Of a stretch of DNA of 64,000 bases, positions 55,084 to 56,188 are shown in pieces. The position numbers and the translations under genes were made by a program. How positions within the stretch are numbered: position 1 is the first letter of the stretch; each line of letters begins with the position of its first letter. Source of the stretch: Lutibacter maritimus. Its GTDB lineage: Bacteria; Bacteroidota; Bacteroidia; Flavobacteriales; Flavobacteriaceae. The stretch is taken from the NCBI RefSeq assembly GCF_900116115.1, contig NZ_FOZP01000001.1:78071-142070 (forward strand), written 5' to 3'. The notes under the pieces were generated by a model that had not been told where the DNA came from, did no database searches, and saw nothing but the letters and a program-made list of their open reading frames with translations.

Positions 55084-55449
55084 TTAAGAAGCATTTGATA
55101 TAGCTGCATTTAATGGGAATTTAAAAACAGCTTTACAAATAGTTTCATTTAATTCCGGTGCTTGGTTATAAACGGTAGCCAATAAATGCAATTCCGAAGC
55201 ATCGTATTTAATAATTTGAGATTTTATAAGCAATTTATCGTTTAAAAAGGCATTTTTTAAAAGCTGCAATTTGTATAATTGAGGAAGTGGAAACGCCATA
55301 TACGCATGTTTGGTAATAATACTTTTAACAAAATCTTCCATTTCATTGTATAAAACGTGTGTTAAAAGGGCGTTTTTATTATTGATATCTTTTTCAGTTA
55401 CTGTGAAGTTTCTTTCTGGACTAGTATAAGTATTTTCTAATGTTTTCAT
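55084..55449 (-). CDS. Hypothetical protein, possibly hotdog-like
   Basis: This is a 121-residue cytoplasmic protein. The pattern of a central helix (ALLTHVLYNEMEDFVKSII) followed by strands (KLLIKSQIIKYDASELHLLATVYN, split by DASEL, and ETICKAVFKFPL) resembles a hotdog thioesterase fold, but no catalytic Asp/Glu signature is clear. I do not recognise the family. It is preceded 11 nt upstream by a 37-codon frame and, further upstream, by the structured RNA and its terminator on the same strand. Confidence 0.65.
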   Translation of the reverse strand: MKTLENTYTSPERNFTVTEKDINNKNALLTHVLYNEMEDFVKSIITKHAYMAFPLPQLYKLQLLKNAFLNDKLLIKSQIIKYDASELHLLATVYNQAPELNETICKAVFKFPLNAAISNAS

Positions 55450-55459
55450 AGTTTTTGTT

Positions 55460-55573
55460 TTAATAATGATTTAATAAGGGTATGGGAATGTGTCTATTTT
55501 TGTTTATAAATAATTGATTACAAAGCGTTGAAATTTTGGAATAGACTTGCTGGATAATTTGTGATTGTTTCAT
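55460..55573 (-). CDS. Possible 37-residue peptide upstream of 55449
   Basis: A frame on the minus strand reads MKQSQIIQQVYSKISTLC, then NQLFINKNRHIPIPLLNHY, with stop at 55460-55462, 11 nt before the next start codon. It could be a small protein or a leader peptide coupled to the downstream gene. No promoter consensus is seen directly upstream. Evidence is only the open frame and its position. Confidence 0.3.
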   Translation of the reverse strand: MKQSQIIQQVYSKISTLCNQLFINKNRHIPIPLLNHY

Positions 55574-55603: not shown

Positions 55604-55637
55604 AAAAAAAAGGTGCTTTTTGTAAAAAGCACCTTTT
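55604..55637 (-). terminator. Intrinsic terminator of the structured RNA
   Basis: Read on the minus strand: stem AGGTGCTTTTT / AAAAAGCACCT (55634-55611) followed by a run of eight T (55611-55604). Very stable. Confidence 0.85.
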
Positions 55638-55815
55638 AAATATATTTTAATAGTTTGTTATCATCAACAATAATAGAAAGTGCTTTTATGTGTACATACC
55701 TGCTGTTGCTTAAGCATATTTACAGCTACAGTACAAACAACAGAATACGATGATTTAAAATCAATCATAGTTGATGTATTAGTAGTTGGTATGTATAAAA
55801 TTGCTTTCATATTGT
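55604..55815 (-). ncRNA. Candidate structured small RNA, three-way junction, about 210 nt
   Basis: A consensus promoter on the minus strand (TTTG 55849-55846, 18-nt spacer, TATTTTTG 55827-55820) should start transcription near 55815. The RNA can fold into a long interrupted closing stem: 55815-55810 with 55672-55667, 55808-55804 with 55680-55676, 55800-55795 with 55689-55684, and 55794-55788 with 55700-55694, every pair Watson-Crick. Inside are two hairpins: 55780-55776/55748-55744 plus 55768-55763/55755-55750, and 55743-55735 with 55711-55703 (9 bp, one G-U). A strong terminator ends it at 55604. A 47-codon frame from 55810 (MKAILYIPTTNTSTMIDFK...) is an alternative reading. A 6S-like RNA is one possibility. 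The fold was found by eye, not by a program. Confidence 0.6.
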
Positions 55816-55819
55816 ATTC

Positions 55820-55849
55820 CAAAAATAAAATATTTTTTTAATTATCAAA
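55820..55849 (-). promoter_or_regulatory. Consensus promoter of the structured RNA (TTTG-N18-TATTTTTG)
   Basis: Both the -33 TTTG (55849-55846) and the -7 TATTTTTG (55827-55820) are exact matches to the Bacteroidota housekeeping promoter, with an 18-nt spacer. It is among the best promoter matches in the window. Confidence 0.75.
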
Positions 55850-55921: not shown

Positions 55922-56188
55922 ATGGCAAGTGTTAAAAATTTAAAGAAAGATATTAATTACGTTTTAGGTGATATTATTGAAGAATGTTACGTATGGGAAT
56001 TATTAAACCCAAGAGCTGATAACAAAAAAGCTGAAGCAATTATTGATGAAGCTATTGCTTCTTTTGATTCTTTAATAGCAAAAGTAAATGCTAAAAAAGT
56101 GGAAGATAATAAAGCACATTATAAAGCAATCAATAAAGAGTTTGAAGAAACTGCAAATGCATTGTTAGCAAAAATTAATTCTTTATAA
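55922..56188 (+). CDS. Small conserved helical protein
   Basis: This is an 88-residue cytoplasmic protein, entirely helical in appearance (INYVLGDIIEECYVWELLNP, then EAIIDEAIASFDSLIAKVN, then YKAINKEFEETANALLAKI). I recognise it only as a small family found across Bacteroidota. The helical-bundle look and acidic/lysine-rich surface suggest a binding protein. It has its own -7 element and is the first plus-strand gene after the divergent structured RNA. Confidence 0.75.
   Translation: MASVKNLKKDINYVLGDIIEECYVWELLNPRADNKKAEAIIDEAIASFDSLIAKVNAKKVEDNKAHYKAINKEFEETANALLAKINSL

Follow-up and report, generated by a model that had tools for sequence, protein, structure and literature searches.

A candidate leader-peptide transcription attenuator ahead of a hotdog-fold protein gene in Lutibacter and its relatives

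The window analysed here, a stretch of 64,000 nucleotides from the genome of Lutibacter maritimus (contig NZ_FOZP01000001.1, positions 78,071 to 142,070), carries on its minus strand a compact unit of promoter sequence, short open reading frame (sORF1) and terminator, whose parts are listed in Table 1. An earlier note on this DNA had described the TTTG motif, the box 18 nt further on, an RNA of about 210 nt and the terminator, all of which are present as described. It had also placed the unit between a peroxiredoxin gene and the oxyR-dps pair. These genes are indeed there, but closest to the unit lie a 121-codon ORF on the same strand downstream (orf121), with the peroxiredoxin gene beyond it, and a divergent 88-codon ORF upstream (orf88), beyond which follow a 70-codon ORF, oxyR and dps. 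Of the 38 genomes examined in the genus, 35 encode the 88-aa protein of orf88, which has no Pfam match above the cut-off; among the loci listed, a similar divergent gene was seen by eye upstream of the leader in many other genera. The note had further mentioned a 47-codon frame beginning within a few nucleotides of the transcript start: this frame, sORF1, has 48 codons and its ATG lies ∼5 nt past the predicted +1, as had been said. The structured RNA had been recognized, but the antiterminator alternative and a second short frame, sORF2, had been missed.

Table 1. Features of the predicted attenuator and its neighbours in the window (position 1 is the first nucleotide of the window)
Feature	Position	Strand	Remarks
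orf88	55922–56188	+	divergent 88-codon ORF
−33 element TTTG	55846–55849	−	from the sequence; 18-nt spacing to the −7 box
−7 element TATTTTTG (TAnnTTTG)	55820–55827	−	from the sequence; predicted +1 near 55815
sORF1	55664–55810	−	48-codon leader peptide MKAILYIPTTNTSTMIDFKSSYSVVCTVAVNMLKQQQVCTHKSTFYYC; intact frame in relatives
Region 1	55787–55814	−	5′ part of sORF1; potential partner of region 2 in a protector stem
Region 2 (extended)	55671–55701	−	partner of region 1; holds the antiterminator element
Antiterminator element AAAAGCACTTT	55677–55687	−	lies at the sORF1 3′ end; 11 possible pairs to region 3
Terminator AAAAGGTGCTTTTTACAAAAAGCACCTTTTTTTT	55604–55637	−	
Region 3	55625–55637	−	terminator 5′ arm AAAAGGTGCTTTT; partner is region 2 or region 4
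Region 4	55604–55620	−	terminator 3′ arm and U-tract; from sequence and fold
sORF2	55460–55573	−	37 codons, MKQSQIIQQVYSKISTLCNQLFINKNRHIPIPLLNHY; between terminator and orf121
orf121	55084–55449	−	predicted regulated gene; 121-aa hotdog-fold thioesterase-like protein

The position of +1 follows from assigning the −7 box to −12 through −5, a rule taken from the accessible part of a study on Flavobacterium psychrophilum (PMC9723704). The RNA predicted from the sequence has a length of ∼212 nt and runs from near 55815 to ∼55604. Folding of the stretch 55815–55596 yields −49 kcal/mol versus −33.1 ± 3.6 kcal/mol for 200 dinucleotide shuffles, none of which folds as well (z −4.4, a value partly due to the terminator, whose hairpin it includes). 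This bears out the claim of more pairing than expected, and the minimum free energy structure does contain the 24-pair closing stem in several segments and the internal hairpins that had been reported. The closing stem is one of two alternative structures in the window species, the other being the antiterminator. A −7 box was found in 47 of the 50 homologous leaders of the family, 33 with the strict TAnnTTTG and 14 only with the relaxed TAnnTTTA; the rule used finds none in L083, L096 and L101. Between terminator and orf121 the strict TAnnTTTG is absent from 49 of 49 segments, a scan that covered the strict consensus alone though 14 leaders carry TAnnTTTA by the rule used. Judged by this strict scan and by linkage, the hotdog gene appears to be without a promoter of its own. 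A search of the own genome with the promoter pattern gave 7 matches compared with 14 for a reversed control and was not used. The unit has no blastn match in a phage collection.

Conservation of the unit in relatives is tied to one neighbour. A blast search over 38 genomes of the genus returned matches in 25; two matching loci (L028, L029) agreed by chance in the terminator alone and were set aside. The orf121 gene is present in 24 of the 38 genomes, and the unit in all 24 of these: 21 have it complete beside orf88, G005 has it complete at a contig end without orf88, G014 has it incomplete and interrupted in the data, and in G011, where orf121 lies away from orf88, the leader accompanies orf121. 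Fourteen genomes are without orf121, and the orf88 site was fetched for 12 of them: pattern search and inspection by eye found the unit in none. In L076 a lone GGTGCTT turned up, with no hairpin to it. These 12 congeners keep orf88, the 70-codon ORF and oxyR but not the unit, which goes with the orf121 hotdog gene rather than with oxyR/dps.

The earlier note had envisaged a 6S-type or an OxyS-like RNA, the latter being OxyR-controlled and acting in trans. No Rfam family reaches its gathering threshold in the window; 6S-Flavo, Flavo-1 and other Rfam families were therefore rejected, and the unit stays below the covariance-model score of at least 85 bits that we required for 6S-Flavo (RF01685). 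A relaxed scan gave 23 weak matches, many on the terminator hairpin, with neither 6S-Flavo nor Flavo-1 among them, and a scan of the loci of six relatives returned only a tRNA. The 6S-Flavo RNA of this genome lies on the same contig outside the window (C19:453393–453500, 104 bits). A free-standing small RNA of either type, which ends at the terminator, acts in trans and is linked to orf121 only incidentally, would still explain promoter, terminator and strong fold, and a terminated RNA could accumulate and take on such a role. We regard it as improbable, given the missing Rfam match, a 6S-Flavo RNA encoded elsewhere, a unit that occurs with orf121 in 24 of 24 congeners and in none of the 12 examined without it, and a co-varying antiterminator (see below) that would have no role in such an RNA.

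A coding role had been left open, and the sORF1 frame proved to be unbroken across the genus, with 44–51 codons in 23 of 23 complete Lutibacter leaders, and in 50 of 50 loci of the own family, where six starts were set by hand. The median dN/dS of sORF1 is ∼0.5 in the unsaturated pairs of 22 Lutibacter sequences. Searched with a profile of sORF1, the own genome yields the unit and nothing else. The frame begins very close to the transcript start: under the −7 box placement given above, the 5′ UTR comprises 0–5 nt in 47 of 50 family loci, and by eye it is 0 nt in five loci of a third family (L131, L132, L134, L135 and L136, four with deviating boxes) and 14–26 nt in the three loci of a second family. 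Leaderless mRNAs make up 5.5% in F. psychrophilum according to the accessible part of PMC9723704, so a near-leaderless sORF1 would be unusual; consequences such as a sensitivity to 70S initiation are conjecture. In the sORF1 peptides Cys, Met and Gln are abundant and Asp and Glu scarce, a bias that may in part follow from AT-rich composition. Cys is enriched about 4-fold without forming runs, Lutibacter peptides carry short Gln stretches (QQ to QQQQ), and Trp is present in 24 of 25 second- and third-family leaders, many of them related. Alignments and composition of sORF1 reveal no run of codons for one amino acid common to all and name no signal. A hairpin in the middle of sORF1 sits at differing places among Lutibacter subgroups, with no single conserved one established.

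The 3′ end of sORF1 can pair with the 5′ arm of the terminator, and antiterminator and terminator therefore exclude each other. Between the element AAAAGCACTTT and the arm 11 pairs are possible, one of them G-U. The strongest duplex with the arm falls within the final 37 nt of sORF1 in 44 of 50 family loci; it lies elsewhere in sORF1 in L022, L080, L089, L094, L097 and L100, although L097 and L100 also have GCATCTT at the usual place. At 14 other terminator-like sites in the window the best duplex is −6.5 kcal/mol, compared with −12.2 kcal/mol at the unit. A wider control over the loci studied, with unit-like sites recognised by motif, found 14 of 172 other sites reaching −12: one is a true unit (L087), 12 are GC-rich terminators of the third family and the last is a site in L072.

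We resampled synonymous codons with the peptide fixed. Element-arm pairing gives z < 0 in 50 of 50 loci (mean −1.90, p < 0.05 in 15), with modest significance at the single locus (p = 0.16 in the window). The fold of sORF1 gives z < 0 in 49 of 50 (mean −2.19, p < 0.05 in 33). For the pairing of regions 1 and 2, z is −4.55 in the window species and −1.35 on average over the 50 loci, with z < 0 in 42 and p < 0.05 in only 18. On average, pairing is above the synonymous-codon expectation. Furthermore, the core of the element, searched in the last 40 nt of sORF1 only, stands in frame 1 in 28 loci, in frame 2 in 20 and in frame 0 in 2, and the peptide over it differs accordingly (KSTF, MHLE, and VKA in the third family). 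Because the core sits in differing frames, it is the RNA and not the peptide sequence that is kept.

These results also bear on the reading in which sORF1 and sORF2 encode small functional proteins in an operon with orf121, the terminator providing ordinary partial termination. The frame of sORF1 unbroken in 50 of 50 family loci, dN/dS values of about 0.5 for both frames in Lutibacter and a Pro-rich pattern common to the C-termini of sORF2 speak for it. The peptides diverge strongly, though, and one part of them that is conserved (KSTF, MHLE, VKA) coincides with the antiterminator element in differing frames; structure exceeds the synonymous expectation, and no sORF2 was detected in L023 and L107 or, by eye, in third-family loci. 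We accordingly give such an operon little chance.

The pairing partners change together. Terminator arms fall into six sequence classes, each with matching elements: GTGAAGGC goes with GCCTTCAC, GGGAAGCACCTC with GAGGTGTTTCCC, GGAGAAGCA with TGCTTCTCC and ATCGAAAGTATC with GGTGCTTTCGAT. We measured covariation by arm-swap permutations. Compared with the median arm of the foreign classes, the own arm pairs better in 72 of 75 loci, the exceptions being L080, L096 and L101; the commonest arm class comprises 48 loci, and its foreign arms are mostly of the GCGCCTTC class (19 of 27). Permutation of arms over the loci gave −9.5 ± 0.3 versus an observed mean of −12.8, the lowest among 5000 permutations being −10.9. 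Kinship among loci inflates counts over loci. At the level of genera (23, each represented by a single locus picked by hand), z is −5.4 and 0 of 20,000 trials reach the observed pairing. Some cases deviate: elements of the small AGTGCTTTT class reach a mean of −11.0 with GGTGCTTTT arms versus −10.2 with their own, the own arm of L135 ranks 22 of 23 in the genus-level permutation, and, when a wider stretch is considered, the best duplex in 8 of 22 leaders of the third family involves a G-rich segment next to GTGAAGGC. Covariation is the strongest evidence that we have, since neither a free small RNA nor coding sequence predicts it.

Folds with an occluding ribosome, which are equilibrium predictions and not kinetics, suggest how translation could decide between the two structures. 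With the ribosome at the sORF1 stop codon the unoccluded part folds into the terminator in 75 of 75 loci, a result partly true by construction because little else is left to fold. With the ribosome upstream of the element, the antiterminator is predicted in 73 of 75. In the untranslated leader at least half of the element is paired in 43 of 75 loci, the window species included; with the element sequestered in these only, the outcome without translation may vary among clades.

Taken together, we consider it highly probable that the unit, placed ahead of the hotdog gene, attenuates transcription under the control of leader-peptide translation. The sequence parts, their conservation, the linkage and the covariation support this view, and from them we infer transcription, ribosome-dependent switching and the direction of regulation. 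RNA polymerase would start near 55815 and ribosomes would engage sORF1 close to the very beginning of the transcript. A ribosome that reaches the stop codon would cover the element at 55677–55687, so that the terminator forms, transcription ends near 55604 and the ∼212-nt RNA alone is made. If the ribosome is stalled or slowed upstream of the element, the latter would pair with the 5′ arm, no terminator would form and transcription would run on into sORF2 and the hotdog gene. When sORF1 remains untranslated in the window species, region 1 could sequester the element, leading to termination again. Mutually exclusive structures and a terminator would also fit a riboswitch-type leader that binds a ligand or protein, with the sORF incidental, which we hold to be very improbable: no conserved aptamer-like core was seen (by Rfam search), the middle of the leader differs among clades, and what persists is the frame, the pairing of element and arm and, in the first and third family, a start that is nearly leaderless.

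We turn to the genes beyond the terminator. AlphaFold2 models orf121 with a mean pLDDT of 85 (19 sequences), and the top Foldseek matches of the model are thioesterases (TM about 0.7); Pfam and NCBIfam give only sub-threshold thioesterase matches (E 0.21 and 0.099, respectively). In an alignment of 33 sequences no acidic residue is conserved at 90% in the long helix (residues 30–46), which makes catalysis uncertain. One locus of the genus (L053, from G024 with 87% completeness) shows one in-frame TAA near the 3′ end of orf121. Between terminator and hotdog gene, a permissive rule that accepts frames of at least 25 codons finds sORF2 in 48 of 50 family loci, but not in L023 and L107; the dN/dS of sORF2 is 0.56 in Lutibacter, and the shared C-terminal pattern reads ..PIPLLLYP or ..IPIPI.. 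Third-family loci viewed by eye have no sORF2 and the gene follows soon after the terminator, with a longer gap in L178 and L179. We regard sORF2 as accessory, and it may be a second leader peptide. One genus genome (L007) has an insertion of ∼160 nt with inverted-repeat ends, MITE-like, between attenuator and sORF2. Three loci of one genus (L082, L084, L085) carry a same-strand ORF ∼70–80 nt downstream of the hotdog gene, which by its motif resembles a DEAD-box helicase and which might share the attenuator.

The arrangement extends beyond the genus. A profile of orf121 matches 42 of 397 family genomes, two of them from the own genus. Besides 13 short weak matches there are 27 longer ones (L081–L107) in 17 further genera, and in 27 of 27 a short ORF ends 22–34 nt ahead of a terminator, upstream of the hotdog gene. 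In several other genera, as in the two other families, inspection by eye shows different genes upstream, and the unit still precedes the hotdog gene. A search at order level matched 10 of 395 genomes, the own included. The second family of the order has the leader in 3 of 3 genomes. The third has orf121 homologues in 34 of 88 genomes (E ≤ 0.001, some weak), and a script that examined 26 loci, several near-identical, found a terminator in 23 and an sORF in 22: L164 lies at a contig edge that leaves 147 nt upstream, L168 (also labelled L135) escaped the script although its terminator is visible by eye, L180 is a true miss by the rules used with no terminator within 420 nt, and L166 has no sORF by the rule used. 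Overall, a short ORF between promoter and terminator is present in 50 of 50 own-family loci and in 25 of 29 from the second and third families; leader counts leave out L147–L156, the weak third-family matches and the 13 weak family matches. At class level 36 of 395 genomes match, and these look like general hotdog proteins, since eight of nine loci examined have no terminator within 420 nt and the ninth (L138) has one with weak pairing only.

Attenuators of amino-acid biosynthesis are known from trp and his. Another example is ilvB1 of Mycobacterium tuberculosis, as mentioned in the accessible part of PMC13236596. The predicted unit resembles the trp/his/ilv systems in its promoter, short leader ORF and mutually exclusive antiterminator and terminator, and a ribosome at the stop codon is here predicted to favour termination as well. 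Unlike these, it has no run of regulatory codons, its target is a hotdog-fold protein and not a known biosynthetic enzyme, sORF1 is leaderless or nearly so in most loci, and in most of the family a second sORF follows past the terminator. Leader-peptide attenuation has been proposed ahead of amino-acid operons of F. psychrophilum; those attenuators share family, promoter type and general mechanism with our unit, but their target genes are other than orf121 and the hotdog locus is not named in the accessible part of that study (PMC9723704).

A leaderless sORF ahead of a regulated gene has a parallel in mycobacteria, where cysteine-responsive attenuators with leaderless polycysteine sORFs were reportedly described by Canestrari et al. 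in 2020, to judge from the title. In contrast to those sORFs, the Cys of our unit forms no runs and a terminator is involved. The accessible part of PMC13236596 terms the mycobacterial system translation attenuation and also mentions the whiB7 leader. As in leaders of the TnaC/whiB7 type, the signal of our unit may be a stall caused by nascent peptide or drug and not amino-acid shortage, although no motif match to the unit has been established. TnaC is an arrest-peptide leader. One tentative idea, which we think rather unlikely, is an order-wide sensor of translation stress: the nascent peptide of the leaderless sORF, with its many Cys, Met and Gln residues, frequent Trp and little Asp or Glu, would arrest the ribosome on a small molecule, or would report the state of leaderless initiation, and so induce a hotdog protein that lacks a conserved long-helix acid and may bind rather than hydrolyse acyl-CoA.

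From the features compared here, the view that the locus represents a new variant of leader-peptide transcription attenuation, spread over three families of one order, is well supported. We found no description of it in the literature searched, which, being open-access only, is weak evidence of absence. Bacteria of this group have no Shine-Dalgarno sequences, as stated in the accessible part of PMC9723704. The predicted switch occurs in three families despite repeated replacement of the sequences that pair, and this persistence would make translation-coupled termination cleanly testable in such bacteria. It would also offer a handle on an uncharacterised hotdog protein: whatever causes the stall on sORF1 would tell when the cell needs it.
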